From a virus: a DNA stretch of 24,286 nucleotides. The stretch is from positions 1-24,286 of IMG/VR virus record IMGVR_UViG_3300020395_000098, one strand, 5' to 3'. The position numbers were made by a program, and so were the translations under genes. The notes below the pieces were generated by a model. It worked only from the letters and a program-made list of their open reading frames with translations, was not told the origin of the DNA and did no database searches. Shown one piece after another: positions 1,802 through 12,600 of the stretch (positions are counted from its first letter, which is position 1; each line of letters begins with the position of its first letter).

Positions 1802-2038
1802 TTATTTAGTGACTGGGACTAGTTTGTTCTCTTTTATTAGAGAATGGAGTAGTTTTCCACAGCTTCCCTTAGTCTCAAGGGTCTCAGACAGTCTTTTAGT
1901 GAAACTATCTGTGTTTTCACAGCTAAATTCATATTCTTTGTCAATATTACTGTTATATGTTACAAATACAGAGTTTTTATCTACTTTTACTCTGAATAAA
2001 GCTGAACTATTGAGGTTTTCGTAATTTTTCACAAACAT
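1802..2038 (-). CDS. Small phage protein, 78 aa, KTSC-like pattern
   Basis: The frame starts at ATG 2036-2038 (MFVKNYENLNSSALFRVKV). The order of two beta strands (FRVKVDKNSVFVTYN, then KEYEFSC), a helix with SFTKRLSETLETKGS and a final helix GKLLHSLIKENKLVPV resembles small KTSC-type or related phage proteins. The likeness is structural only and the role is unknown. One TTTTCCACA box (1853-1861) lies inside the gene near its 3' part. Directly upstream is an AT-rich non-coding stretch with a large inverted repeat (2064-2133), which may control it. A plus-strand frame here is a shadow. Confidence 0.72.
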   Translation of the reverse strand: MFVKNYENLNSSALFRVKVDKNSVFVTYNSNIDKEYEFSCENTDSFTKRLSETLETKGSCGKLLHSLIKENKLVPVTK

Positions 2039-2063
2039 GTTAAATGTAAATTTATTAAATTCT

Positions 2064-2133
2064 TTAAAAAGTCAGTTTTTCGTTTTTTTGGCTTTTTTAA
2101 CTTTCTCAAAAAGTCAAAAAACTGACTTTTTAA
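2064..2133. repeat. Perfect 17-bp inverted repeat with a 36-nt loop
   Basis: TTAAAAAGTCAGTTTTT at 2064-2080 is the exact reverse complement of 2117-2133. Part of the arm (AAAAAGTC) is repeated once more at 2108-2115 inside the loop, so alternative pairings are possible. It lies 26 nt upstream of the start codon of the 1802-2038 gene. Confidence 0.85.
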
Positions 2134-2276
2134 GATTTTGAGTTTTCCACAGGTTGTGGAAAAGTGTATTTCTGAAGTTTTCCGAATGTTTAGTTTTCCA
2201 CAGGTTGGGGAAAAACTCAGGATCCTCCTTAACTCTCCCCTTATTATAAAGGATCTCAGAGGGTTTCCGAGGGTTA

Positions 2277-2301
2277 GTGTGCAACTTTGAGAACTGGCAC
2301 A
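2277..2301. repeat. Palindromic repeat, copy 4 of 6
   Basis: GTGTGCAACTTTG followed by AGAACTGGCACA, with outer arms TGTGC/GCACA. It is the only copy not beside a recognised stop codon; it lies in the gene-free stretch 2039-2465. Confidence 0.6.
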
Positions 2302-2465
2302 ACCGTACTTGACTTTCGGTAGGTGGCAGGCTAAGACTACATCAACACCGCACATTACCTATATTTAATTAAACATTTCAAAAGTTTTCCACAACCCTGT
2401 GTAAAACCTTGTAACATCCCTGTGACACCAACGTGCGGATAGTGGTACAAGGATACTATCCTATA

Positions 2466-2989: not shown

Positions 2990-3183
2990 TAGTAAAACCT
3001 CGGTTCACTGCCTACTTCAATATCTATAGTGTCAAATATCCTGTTAAGTGCATTAGCATATGATCTATAACCACTGCCTACGTACACTTGACCAGCTACC
3101 ACACTGAAGGTTGCAATACCCCAGAAGATATAATAGAATTTACTTTTCACTTGGTTACGTGCTTTCGTGATCTTGTGTGTCAT
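2989..3183 (-). CDS. Small single-pass membrane protein, 64 aa, function unknown
   Basis: The frame starts at ATG 3181-3183 with AGGA about six bases upstream. A basic N-terminus (MTHKITKARNQVKSK) is followed by one hydrophobic segment of about 19 residues (residues 16-35, FYYIFWGIATFSVVAGQVYV), then GSGYRSYANALNRIFDTIDI and a short tail ending EPRFY. The positive-inside rule puts the N-terminus in the cytoplasm. The FYYIFWG...VAGQVYVG pattern resembles a small membrane protein I recall from many cyanomyoviruses with no assigned role. It overlaps the upstream gene by four bases and the downstream one by one base. Confidence 0.8.
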   Translation of the reverse strand: MTHKITKARNQVKSKFYYIFWGIATFSVVAGQVYVGSGYRSYANALNRIFDTIDIEVGSEPRFY

Positions 3184-3479
3184 TTCTTTCCTGTATAATG
3201 ATAAGCAGTGTATTCATTTTGCTTTAGTTTATGTTTTCTTATCCATGCTTGTATCCTATCAAGATCATCAAACCATGCCTTATTAAGATGGTCTTCATGT
3301 TTCTTTCCTGGAAAGAATGCATAAGGGAAGCGATTAAGATGTGGGAACAATTCCTTATCTTTGCTTCCTTTTATTAGAGGAGTTTTGCTTACTGTTACGT
3401 TCTTTCTCTTGCTCGTTGAACCACTTGAAGTAGTCAGAGTCGTTAGATTGTTGTTCAGAGACTTTTGTGTCCGTGGCAT
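3180..3479 (-). CDS. Phage protein, 99 aa, function unknown
   Basis: The frame starts at ATG 3477-3479 with GGAG six bases upstream. The first 35 residues are Ser/Thr/Asn-rich and probably disordered (NNLTTLTTSSGSTSKRKN). The rest is a compact aromatic, basic part (FPHLNRFPYAFFPGKKHEDH, then KAWFDDLDRIQAWIRKHKL) ending in YTAYHYTGKK. No known motif is seen. The stop overlaps the start of the membrane-protein gene by four bases (ATGA), so expression of the two is probably coupled. Confidence 0.72.
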   Translation of the reverse strand: MPRTQKSLNNNLTTLTTSSGSTSKRKNVTVSKTPLIKGSKDKELFPHLNRFPYAFFPGKKHEDHLNKAWFDDLDRIQAWIRKHKLKQNEYTAYHYTGKK

Positions 3480-3682: not shown

Positions 3683-4281
3683 TTCTTTGCTGAGTGTTTA
3701 ATAATACTATCAAGGGCAATGGAATATCTTATATTACTCTCTTTACCGTTAGGTGTGGCGAAGTGTTCTACCCAACTGGGAATAACAACTATTAACCCAC
3801 TCCTAGGAATAACTCTCCATAGGTTAGCATTGTATATATTAAACCTATCAACAACAGAGTTTTCATTAGCTTCAGATGATATGACATAGGGCAAACTATC
3901 GTTAGGATTAACTAATTCTAAGTGTCCTACCTCATCACCTTCAACATATGGATAATAGATTGAATTAAATGTCGCTTCAATGTGCCTATGGGCAACACCA
4001 AAGCGTATGTTCCAATCTGTATTCACCCAACCCTTCTTAAGATCCTGATAATACTGTCTCTTAAGACCTAGTTGCGTGTGTAGATCATTAAAGATCGCAC
4101 GTACTTCCGCATAATACTCTGTTAGTTCAGGTTCTGCTAATCCTAACCTAATTCTACCATTTACATCACTCTCTTGACTGCGTATCCAGTGTAATACCCT
4201 ATCATGGTCAATGTTCAGTTGTCCTTCACATAAGAACGAACTGAAGATAGGTGTTACATTCAACTGTGATGTCGCATTCAT
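3679..4281 (-). CDS. Putative 2OG-Fe(II) oxygenase, 200 aa
   Basis: The C-terminal half follows the phage 2-oxoglutarate/Fe(II) oxygenase pattern (PF13759-like). GWVNTDWNIRFGVAHRHIEA (residues about 84-103) carries the H-x-H entry to the iron site, followed by the SIYYPYVEGDEVGHLELVNP beta strands. RSGLIVVIPSWVEHFATPN (about 159-177) supplies the distal histidine, and IRYSIALDS the arginine expected to bind 2-oxoglutarate. Such enzymes hydroxylate proteins, bases or small molecules; the substrate of the phage forms is unknown. The start at ATG 4279-4281 overlaps the stop of the 35-aa gene upstream (ATGA). Its neighbours give no hint of a substrate. The family assignment is from motifs alone. 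Confidence 0.75.
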   Translation of the reverse strand: MNATSQLNVTPIFSSFLCEGQLNIDHDRVLHWIRSQESDVNGRIRLGLAEPELTEYYAEVRAIFNDLHTQLGLKRQYYQDLKKGWVNTDWNIRFGVAHRHIEATFNSIYYPYVEGDEVGHLELVNPNDSLPYVISSEANENSVVDRFNIYNANLWRVIPRSGLIVVIPSWVEHFATPNGKESNIRYSIALDSIIKHSAKK

Positions 4282-5056: not shown

Positions 5057-5506
5057 CTATCTAAGATAGAGGTAACCACCTGCCCAGTCTGCTCTCTTAA
5101 AGCACTCTGCTCTATTCTCATCATCTAATAGATTATAACGTACGTACTTAGTATGTGGTGACTTCCATGATGCAGGTTTATAAACTGCACCAGTCTTCTT
5201 ATCTACGAATGCATGTACGCTAGTATCTTTATACTCATTCCTATCTTGGAATGTATCATACTCTACTTGTATAACCTTGTGATACTTACGTCCTTCTTCA
5301 ATTCTAAATGTAATTACATCTTTCTCAGTACCATCTTTGAGAGCATTCAGTCTGTTACGTGTCCATTCTGAACCTTCACCTCTAGCTAGAAGTCTCTCGT
5401 TAGATTCTATCCTGTACTTGATATATTGCTTGCCCAACACTTCACATAGTTCCTCAGTGTACTGTCTAACAGTTTCTGTAGTAGGAATGAATTGAGTTTT
5501 GGTCAT
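5057..5506 (-). CDS. Conserved-type phage protein, 149 aa, function unknown
   Basis: The frame starts at ATG 5504-5506 (MTKTQFIPTTETVRQYTEEL). The N-terminal 60 residues are helical (LGKQYIKYRIESNERLLARG, then SEWTRNRLNALKDG). A beta-rich part follows (DVITFRIEEGRKYHKVIQVE). The C-terminus has VHAFVDKKTGAVYKPASWKS, YVRYNLLDD and DWAGGYLYLR, a set of blocks I recognise from an uncharacterised protein found in several groups of tailed phages. No catalytic residues are evident and its role is unknown to me. It follows the 434-nt gene-free block and ends four bases before the -35 box at 5048-5053. A short hairpin (CTATC/GATAG) covers its stop codon. Confidence 0.78.
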   Translation of the reverse strand: MTKTQFIPTTETVRQYTEELCEVLGKQYIKYRIESNERLLARGEGSEWTRNRLNALKDGTEKDVITFRIEEGRKYHKVIQVEYDTFQDRNEYKDTSVHAFVDKKTGAVYKPASWKSPHTKYVRYNLLDDENRAECFKRADWAGGYLYLR

Positions 5507-5940
5507 TTGAAATAATTAGATTTGAATTGAGTGTTAAGAGGGAGTGGGTCTGCACAATGGGTTTCACCCAAGAGACCAAATTTACCCTACGGGAATCGCT
5601 TACACCTGAACCCCCACCACTTGCACATTGGACTTACAGGACGTAATTTCTCTGCTGAACAGAGACAACCATAGATCCTTGCGTGTGCTCAACCATCAGT
5701 CATCTGTGTGCTGTGATAGGTTTCTACCAACGATCATGTGACTGCTTTAGGGTCTTACACTCATTGCTATCCCATCCCCATATGCAAGAATAAATTCTGC
5801 TTTTTCGGGTTTAAGTATGGACTCTCACCATACCCAATGGATGCCCATGTCAGTCTAGTCGGTAGGTTTGGGGCGTAGGAACCACATATCCCTCTCAACA
5901 TTTATATAATAGTATATTTGAAGGTCTGTGTCAGCATATA
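5507..5940. ncRNA. Gene-free, GC-richer, hairpin-rich block; candidate structured RNA or intron relic
   Basis: No frame over 50 codons is convincing. Visible stems include: GGTCT/AGACC (5547-5551 with 5573-5577) enclosing TGGGT/ACCCA (5558-5562 with 5566-5570); TCTCTG/CAGAGA (5649-5665); CAGTCA/TGACTG (minus strand, about 5695-5745); and GTATGG/CCATAC (5815-5833). On the minus strand, CGACTAGAC (within 5844-5863) followed about 30 nt later by GGTGAGAGTCC (within 5815-5834) resembles the R and S core elements of group I introns. I could not find convincing P and Q partners or splice sites. The block is visibly richer in GC than the genes beside it. Strand is undecided. Confidence 0.4.
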
Positions 5941-9606: not shown

Positions 9607-12600
9607 CTACATCGCTTTGATGAGGTACTTAGAACGATGATATTTAGTGACAAGAGATAAACTATCTTGAACACTTGCAGTACCTGCTACAGATATTGGT
9701 GTGGATGTAGATAGAGTTAATGTACCATCAGTGAATCTAATATTAGAATCTCTTGCAGTAACTACTCTTCTAATCTCATCAATACCATCTTCAGGTCCAC
9801 AATCACCATCATTACCAGGAATTGATGCATTTAATGTTGGAACAAATATTCTTTCAGTGTATGTTGCATACCTAACACCAAACAATGCAAGACCCCAGTT
9901 ATCATTAACAGATCCACCTTGTTCATTTGGGTTGTCTCCTGAACCATCTGGTCTTGTTTGTCTTATTATTAAATATATACCATTTATTCTTGCATCACTT
10001 TCTTCATCAATATCAATACTATAATTTGCCCAACCTGAAGTTCCTACATTTTGTGGATCTGCTACAGCTTGAAGCACAGTTTCAGATGTTGCATCCAATG
10101 ATACTTTAAAATAACAATCTATTGCTTCTTCTGGTGCTTCACCACCATTAGAGTTATTACCTTTAATAACACCAAATGTAATCTTATCAGCATTAAGTAA
10201 GTTTAGAGGACCGATTTGTAAGAATCTACTACCAAGACCACTGTATCTAATATGTCTATTAGCCATACCATTACTAATGTTAGTTGCAAGTCCAAAGTTA
10301 TCACCAACAGATCCAACAACATCTAATGCTTCACTTGCTGAGTGCCATATATTAGCAGCAGCACCTGTGAATGGTGCACCAGCATTTGCTATATCATAAT
10401 TACCATCTGGGAAATTTGGAACTTCATAATATCTACCTGAAGGTGCAGATATACCAACTACATCATCATCGCCAGGTAATCTACCATAACATCCAATTTC
10501 TACTCTACCTGGATTACCATTTTGTATAGCAGCACCTTGATTACCTGCACCACCAGAACCACCATCACCAACTTCAATAAAGAATGATGTTGATATATCA
10601 TCTGAAGTTGTTAATGGTTGCATTGCTATATTCAATGCAGCACCACCACCTCCACCACCTCCAGAGGCGTTGAATCCTTCTTCTTCAAATGTTGCTGTGA
10701 GTGTGACATAACCACCACCTGTAGATCCAGATGATTCACTAGGAGAAGTGACGTAAGTTGTACTGATTGCTGATCTACCAGCATTACCACCTGATCCTGA
10801 ACCTGTATTAACATGACCAGCACCAGCGACACCACCAGCACCACCATTACCTCCACCAGTGGGGCCAGCACCACCGCCACCACCTCCTCCTCCACCAGAG
10901 GTACATCCTTTTGATCCACCACTTCCACCAGGATTGAATGTAAATAGATTTGCTTCATATAATCCACTGGTAGGTCCGAGACCTGCACCACCAGTCCAGC
11001 ATGGGTCAGTGATACCACCACCGTTCCATCCTCCACCTGAACCACCGCCACCGCCACCGCCGCCAGCAGCAGCGATTGCTTGACCAAAACCAACATTTAG
11101 AGACGTGCATCCACCGCCACCTCCTCCAGATCCACCATTACCCCATGCACCTGAACCTGATGTACCACCATTAGCACCATTAGCACCAGAACCACCATTA
11201 GCTGATGGTTCACCTACACTTCCTACTTGTTGGTTTACACCTGGATCTCCTTGTTGTCCTATAGTCCAATCAAGTACACCATTAAAATTCAACAATCTTC
11301 CTGTGACCCTTCTACCTGGAGATCCAGTACCACCACCATAACCAACACATCCTCCTATACCATTAGCAGGACCATTACCACCAGCACCACCAGAAATATC
11401 AAAGTCTACATATGAAATTGAAGCAATTTCCTCATCTGGTACTCCAACAATATCATTAACATCTATACTACCAGTAGTAACGTTTGTACCAGTAGTTATC
11501 AATTCTTCTACCCTAATCTCCCATAGATTAGTACCTGCACTAACTCCCTTACTATATCTAAATGAACCAGCAGTATTTCCAGTTACTATCTGTGCACCAT
11601 CTGCGTTAGAACCAACACTTGCACCATTATAATAGTATGTGTATGTTCCACCTCCACCTCCACCTTGTAACTGTTGCTCTGATACATCACAAACCCAATT
11701 CATTTCTGATGTACTATTAAAGGAATTTACATATGCTCCTGTTATTGAACTAACTTCACAAAGATCAAACCTTTGAGTTGGAGAATGCTCATAAGTAGGG
11801 AATTGCATTTGTTGTACTTCTATTTCATACCTAGTTTGTGGTTGATTATTAATAGCAACAATTTCTACCTTAGCATTACAGTCATTTCCATCACCATCCT
11901 TGAAACATAAACCAGGAAATGCTGGTGGTGATGGAATTACATCAAATCCAGCAGCATTCATACCTGTTATAGTACAAGGATAAATTGTATTAGCTGTTAC
12001 TGCTATGTTAACATGAGTAGTATCATCTACACCTGATGTTTGTCCCTGATTCTGAGTAAATGATACAGTTTGTCCTCCAATCTGCCATGATACAGTTCCT
12101 AATGCATATCCATTAGATCCACCGTCTAACCATTCAAAACGAAAATCTACTTGAGCAAATCCAGTACCAGTAACTTTTAAATCTCCACTACCACCTATAA
12201 ACTCAACTGCAATATCAGAAGTACCTGCTAATTGAGTTCCTCCTTTAAATCTATAACAACCCCAATAGTTCCATAGACCATTTTCATATGTTGGACCATT
12301 TCTTCCATATGGGTTGACTGCTCTTAAAACTCCCTTATAATAAAAATGGTATCCCATCAGGCCAGATTTATTCTGAGGATTAGGATTTCCTGGATCTATA
12401 ACCAAACCATTTGGATTTGAACAGGTCTCCATAAAGTTTTGTGCAGTGAAGTTTGCACCAGGTCCATATACAGTAGTCCAACTTTCATCTCCCGTTTGTC
12501 CAAATATAGTTGAACCTTGAATCTGAGTACCAGCACCAAGATCCCAATTTAAACCAGCAGTAAAAGTTGGTGGAACCTTCCAAAGATTTTGCTGTCCTAA

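Follow-up and report, generated by a model that had tools for sequence, protein, structure and literature searches.

A cluster of cyanobacterial-type DnaA boxes in a conserved control element of T4-like cyanophages

A cluster of cyanobacterial-type DnaA boxes occupies a conserved control region in a T4-like cyanophage and in a subset of its relatives. This points to recruitment of host DnaA by some T4-like phages. Our preferred reading, to which we assign a probability of roughly 45%, is that the boxes bind host DnaA in a conserved control element, most likely a replication origin. To our knowledge, T4 itself does not use DnaA; T4-like phages are regarded as independent of host DnaA, and we know of no case of DnaA recruitment in the group. 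Within the literature collection searched, no report of DnaA boxes in cyanophages was found.

The DNA analyzed (the window) is a 24,286-base IMG/VR virus record, IMGVR_UViG_3300020395_000098, positions 1 to 24,286. Judged by its genes, the window is a piece of a T4-like cyanophage genome (Kyanoviridae), in line with the T4-like identity assumed in the original prediction: its large genes are tail fibre and virion genes of T4-like type, and its nearest relatives are T4-like phages of Synechococcus and Prochlorococcus. Because it comprises only this 24-kb record, genome-wide box counts were taken from named relatives.

Box cluster in the window

Exact copies of the 9-mer TTTTCCACA occur seven times in the 24.3 kb, at 34(+), 714(-), 1853(+), 2143(+), 2155(-), 2194(+) and 2385(+), compared to a mean of 0.53 in shuffled sequences, where seven copies were never reached. 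Five of them fall within 1800-2420 (541 bp, 1853-2393), an interval for which dinucleotide shuffling gave a mean of 0.024 and, among 5,000 shuffles, a maximum of two. No 600-bp stretch in 300 shuffled windows contained more than one box. These values confirm the initial claim that five exact 9-mers within about 550 bp exceed chance, and the three proposed units of box, gap and inverted box were likewise recovered, one exact (2143-2163) and two with one mismatch each (2194-2214 and 2385-2406). The box pairs of the window have spacings of 12 and 13. One-mismatch boxes are present at an ordinary frequency across the window (13 versus 11 expected), so the signal resides in the exact 9-mer. Apart from one sequence at 11167, a coding repeat of a tail gene, TTTTCCACA is the sole 9-mer of mixed composition with four copies inside 300 bp in the window. 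The features of the cluster and one nearby gene are as follows.

1213-1596: gene of the 'Kyanoviridae Gp96' family, by family match
1853-1861, plus strand: exact box within the coding sequence of phrog_4357; the nearest relative, L020, has a box at the matching site (3178-3186)
2143-2163: exact box pair TTTTCCACA-GGT-TGTGGAAAA, retained in L020, L027, L036 and L042
2194-2214: box at 2194-2202 (plus strand) with an inverted one-mismatch partner at 2206-2214; identical sequence in L020
2385-2406: box at 2385-2393 (plus strand) with an inverted one-mismatch partner at 2398-2406, within the exchangeable slot described below

The location of the cluster in a gene-free stretch, as first described, holds for four boxes (in 2039-2547) but not for the box at 1853, which is part of the phrog_4357 gene. 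The stretch 2039-2547 yielded no conserved gene; an unsupported 108-aa open reading frame at 2029-2355 lacks a PHROG match.

Conserved element and boxes in relatives

Positions 1802-2380 of the window are homologous to one locus in many named Kyanoviridae. Homologues of the phrog_4357 protein were found in 36 records of named phages and in 80 retained IMG/VR loci, and one relative is annotated as a KTSC domain protein. Read on the strand of this gene, the element starts with a conserved edge (CCGCAC...), followed by the slot, AAATATAGG, the core (GTCTTAGC..GC.ACCTA.CGAAAGTCAAG), a palindrome (TGTG.CA...TG.CACA), TATAAT, a leader, AT-rich inverted repeats and the gene. In window coordinates, its parts are:

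1802-2038, minus strand: phrog_4357 gene, 78 aa (PHROG match, E 1.3e-21), the first gene downstream of the element
2064-2133: AT-rich inverted repeats AAAAAGTC...GACTTTTT, with 27-nt arms that are 89% complementary; a possible DNA-unwinding stretch
2243-2248, minus strand: TATAAT as the -10 hexamer of an early-type promoter directed at phrog_4357, from sequence comparison
2278-2301: conserved palindrome TGTGC(A/C)A...TGGCACA, from the alignment of 63 loci
2309-2337, plus strand: conserved core, from the alignment of 63 loci
2380-2440: slot of the element (homologous loci L008-L099)
2418-2438, minus strand: conserved outer edge CCGCAC.TTGGTGTCACAGGG, from comparison with relatives

A scan of the window with a consensus promoter did not call the TATAAT promoter at 2243-2248. 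Its -35 sequence, CTCGGA, is weak; in several relatives TTGCAA or TTGACA precedes TATAAT by 17 bp, and Syn9, S-SM2 and P-SSM7 feature TTGACA-17/18-TATAAT. The core at 2309-2337 might additionally act as a divergent promoter (TTGACT-17-TAAGAC, with a poor -10), a possibility suggested by its sequence; at the matching core position, S-SM2 has TTGACA-17-TAGAAT. The AT-rich stretch, seen in the window, is extreme in five of the eight box- or element-bearing genomes tested. Among the five genomes with the full element, its homologue is the genome's lowest-GC 300 bp in three (Syn1, S-WAM2 and S-CAM4) and takes second (S-PM2) or third place (Sf-FR1) in the other two. No AT-rich stretch was found near the boxes of S-SM2, P-TIM68, P-SSM7 and Syn9.

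Relatives were fetched by protein alone (80 in total, of which 71 were used for box density and 51 represent non-redundant loci). In the 71 relatives, the 450 bp upstream of the gene contain 63 boxes in 31 kb versus 23 in 333 kb elsewhere, a 29-fold excess. Boxes thus recur at one place in relatives, and neither a similar density of the 9-mer elsewhere nor a lack of conservation, either of which would have spoken against the original prediction, was observed. At least one box is present upstream in 18 of the 51 non-redundant loci, while 33 have none. A search based solely on box pairs yielded 172 viral contigs, of which 36 matched the element profile, 30 of these at the boxes as counted from coordinates and with some near-identical contigs among them; for contigs found with the reversed word, the profile matched 0 of 120.

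When 22 named phage genomes were scanned whole, close box pairs or triples were detected in eight (Syn1, S-RIM44, Sf-FR1, S-PM2, P-SSM7, Syn9, S-SM2 and P-TIM68), each in a common gene neighbourhood. These box-bearing genomes contain three to eight boxes, with close pairs or triples only in this neighbourhood, and the remaining 14 contain zero to four scattered boxes. Syn1, S-RIM44 and Sf-FR1 carry three direct boxes with a 12-bp period, P-SSM7 has a further box pair ~600 bp away, and the pair of Syn9, at 52,565-52,597, belongs to an element of the same type. S-SM2 and P-TIM68 were placed by neighbourhood (upstream of gp25 and gp6), since the element profile misses both.

Where pairs of loci were compared, boxes were mostly better conserved than their surroundings: L027 and L036 share 36 of 36 box bases versus 63% identity outside, and Syn1 and Sf-FR1 share 27 of 28 versus 56%. 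The window and L020 differ by gains and losses of boxes, with 53 of 71 box bases identical versus 72% outside. The counterpart of the window pair at 2385-2406 is an exact inverted pair in L020, L027 and L036; in Syn1 and Sf-FR1 it consists of three direct boxes.

In a second group of contigs, three to four direct boxes alternate with TTATA-type motifs and are joined by inverted boxes, at the following positions.

L122, 12909-13218
L131, 706-824
L134, 581-890
L184, 5907-6194
L193, 4848-5146
L215, 3941-4163

Genes on these contigs encode phrog_1574, gp6-type baseplate and ferredoxin proteins, and several of the contigs are T4-like by their baseplate or phrog_1574 genes; no DNA match to named phages was found. 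Their arrays appear even more oriC-like and strengthen the case for host-type DnaA arrays in T4-like cyanophages.

Exchangeable slot and the case for host DnaA

The 9-mer TTTTCCACA is, as originally proposed, the cyanobacterial form of the DnaA box, with binding demonstrated in vitro (PMC4674748). Of 145 cyanobacterial genomes, 119 contain pairs of this 9-mer, compared to three for the reversed word. Box spacings in viral contigs peak at 11-12, 21-22 and 32-33 bp, consistent with helical phasing and matching bacterial genomes, while the reversed word shows weaker periodicity. The flank consensus [AG]G-TTTTCCACA-[GA] is the same as in cyanobacterial arrays and unlike that of isolated boxes in phage genomes; like the spacing analysis, this comparison draws on sets of related loci. 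At the element locus, G precedes the box in 72% of cases (position -1), versus 57% in cyanobacteria and 22% at isolated phage boxes, and G or A follows it (position +1) in 96%, versus 97% in cyanobacteria. An intact DNA-reading motif was present in the DnaA of all ten small-genome cyanobacteria, which were assigned as picocyanobacterial hosts from size, G+C and gene order; the host of the window phage is itself a prediction. From these sequence features, the boxes are very probably binding sites for host DnaA.

Two related candidates were rejected. A phage-encoded DnaA was absent from all ten phage genomes searched. Boxes marking the host oriC beside dnaN were missing from five of six GC-poor, Prochlorococcus-like genomes and also from G104, a genome of the same class; the scarcity of boxes beside dnaN in such genomes agrees with previous findings cited in PMC4674748 and speaks against a strict dependence on DnaA.

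The slot of the element holds different modules in different phages. Among 63 non-redundant loci, with motif classes set by eye, 15 carried boxes in the slot, 22 a TTCTCAATA...TATTGAGAA palindrome, eight GGATACTACC-type repeats, seven TCTCCCCCCTCGGTGAA and 11 none of these modules; no locus had two. Other proteins presumably bind the non-box modules. Phages sharing a host differ as well: for WH8102, Sf-FR1 has boxes and Sf-CH1b none, and for WH7803, S-PM2 has boxes and ACG-2014h none. With other modules in the slot and same-host phages that differ, the boxes are optional, and T4-like cyanophages as a group are therefore not strictly DnaA-dependent at this locus. A further candidate, that the most frequent non-box module contains a host regulon word (TTATTGANNNTCAATAA), was rejected: in ten host genomes, TTATTGANNNTCAATAA was not clearly more abundant than the reversed word.

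Proposed origin function and competing explanations

We ranked an origin first, since a single locus per genome brings together oriC-like arrays, a promoter and an extreme AT-rich stretch. Following infection, host DnaA would bind the box pairs and, positioned beside the early promoter and the AT-rich stretch, might help to open the duplex; alternatively, bound DnaA could stabilize an RNA-DNA hybrid derived from the promoter. Phage helicase and polymerase would then load at the element for a first round of replication, with later rounds driven by recombination in the T4 fashion. Known T4 R-loop origins (oriF/uvsY and oriG/34) comprise a MotA-dependent middle promoter and lack DnaA boxes. Like these, the phage element places a promoter ahead of an easily unwound stretch (in the window, TATAAT at 2243-2248 on the minus strand followed by the AT-rich repeats at 2064-2133, with a weak -35), but here host-type DnaA boxes flank the promoter. 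GC skew, proposed as a check with the original prediction, shows no turn at the locus, which in this respect lends the origin no support. The absence of an AT-rich stretch near the boxes of S-SM2, P-SSM7 and Syn9 also speaks against it. Only phage genes, and neither dnaA nor dnaN, lie next to the cluster; such adjacency is not expected in a phage.

DnaA boxes at the origin of a mobile genome have precedents in plasmids and plasmid-prophages such as P1, whose oriR combines them with its own initiator and iterons in a low-copy replicon; the present element belongs instead to a lytic T4-like phage. Cyanobacterial oriC arrays (Synechococcus elongatus PCC 7942, Anabaena PCC 7120 and Cyanothece 51142; PMC4674748) share with it the 9-mer, spacing classes, flanks and, in the window and some of the phages, a nearby AT-rich stretch. 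Unlike them, it resides in a lytic phage away from dnaN and dnaA, adjoins a phage early-type promoter and carries a replaceable module. Syn9, for which a single theta origin has been predicted according to a review (PMC2984593), has a box pair in the same type of element. No mapped start site for cyanophage replication was found in the literature collection searched.

A broader proposal, which we regard as rather unlikely, is that T4-like cyanophages start their first round with host DnaA at a conserved origin whose exchangeable initiator slot confers modular specificity. Phages would plug in sites for different initiators, either host DnaA or at least three other modules. The slot suggests modularity of initiation or early control among abundant marine phages, and the presence of one small locus in cultured phages (Syn9, S-PM2, Syn1 and P-SSM7) makes DnaA binding, origin firing and early transcription testable.

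Instead of starting replication, DnaA at the element may regulate transcription, blocking or tuning early expression of the phrog_4357 cluster according to the replication state of the host. This reading, which we rank second and consider possible but doubtful, fits the position of the boxes immediately downstream of both the early promoter and the possible divergent promoter: the start predicted for the promoter at 2243-2248 is followed ~20-95 nt downstream by the boxes at 2194-2214 and 2143-2163. Strong promoters also accompany the arrays that lack an AT-rich stretch (Syn9, S-SM2 and P-SSM7), and DnaA is known to act as a bacterial transcription factor (PMC8203912). However, the box triple of Syn1 is located ~200 bp upstream of the promoter, arrays of the L122 group, with up to four direct boxes and TTATA motifs, resemble oriC more than operators, and the extreme AT-rich stretch would be left unexplained.

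It is unlikely that another host or phage protein prefers TTTTCCACA and that DnaA is uninvolved. The slot is not tied to DnaA, since other phages hold unrelated modules there, and boxes beside dnaN are mostly missing in Prochlorococcus-like hosts; yet the exact cyanobacterial box, its flanks and the spacing of host arrays would have to agree by triple coincidence. Even less probable is a titrating site that would sequester host DnaA and so prevent further host replication rounds. A fast-multiplying genome with several strong boxes could have such an effect, and the datA-like loci of Escherichia coli, which titrate DnaA, are likewise box clusters outside oriC. The phage boxes are, however, few per genome (six to eight) and fixed at one conserved promoter element rather than in free clusters, and box-free phages use the same hosts.

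That inverted boxes act as RNA hairpin stems or terminators is very improbable: although 2143-2163 folds as a 9-pair, terminator-like stem and outward pairs TGTGGAAAA-CTTT-TTTTCCACA recur in L087 and L047, the stem stays TTTTCCACA without covariation, box spacing tracks the helical repeat, and a terminator is rejected because several members (Syn1, S-RIM44, Sf-FR1 and S-SM2) carry direct repeats only, which cannot form a stem. An RNA element was rejected as well, with no Rfam match at the gathering score and only short palindromes from RNAalifold on 63 sequences, in ~40% of which the outer CCGCAC/GTGCGG arms were mispaired.

Several further repeats and shared segments were recorded. The outward pairs, at L087:3557-3578, 4250-4271 and 5145-5166 and at L047:3683-3704, are preceded by a CAGCTGCC or CAGCCGCC motif and are possibly terminators reusing TTTTCCACA. 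In the window, positions 656-670 and 1876-1890 form a perfect 15-nt inverted repeat (TGTCTGAGACCCTTG / CAAGGGTCTCAGACA) with a separation of ~1.2 kb. A 35-nt direct repeat with 77% identity (CAGTTTGTGAACTGTCTGAGGGCAGCTGG; 348-382 and 1002-1036) lies between small genes and perhaps represents hairpins at gene ends. Positions 135-344 share 76% identity with an unannotated stretch of P-SSM2. Finally, 53 bp at 5630-5682 are identical to unannotated intergenic DNA of P-SSM2 and marine single-cell phage contigs, far exceeding the similarity of the surrounding DNA.
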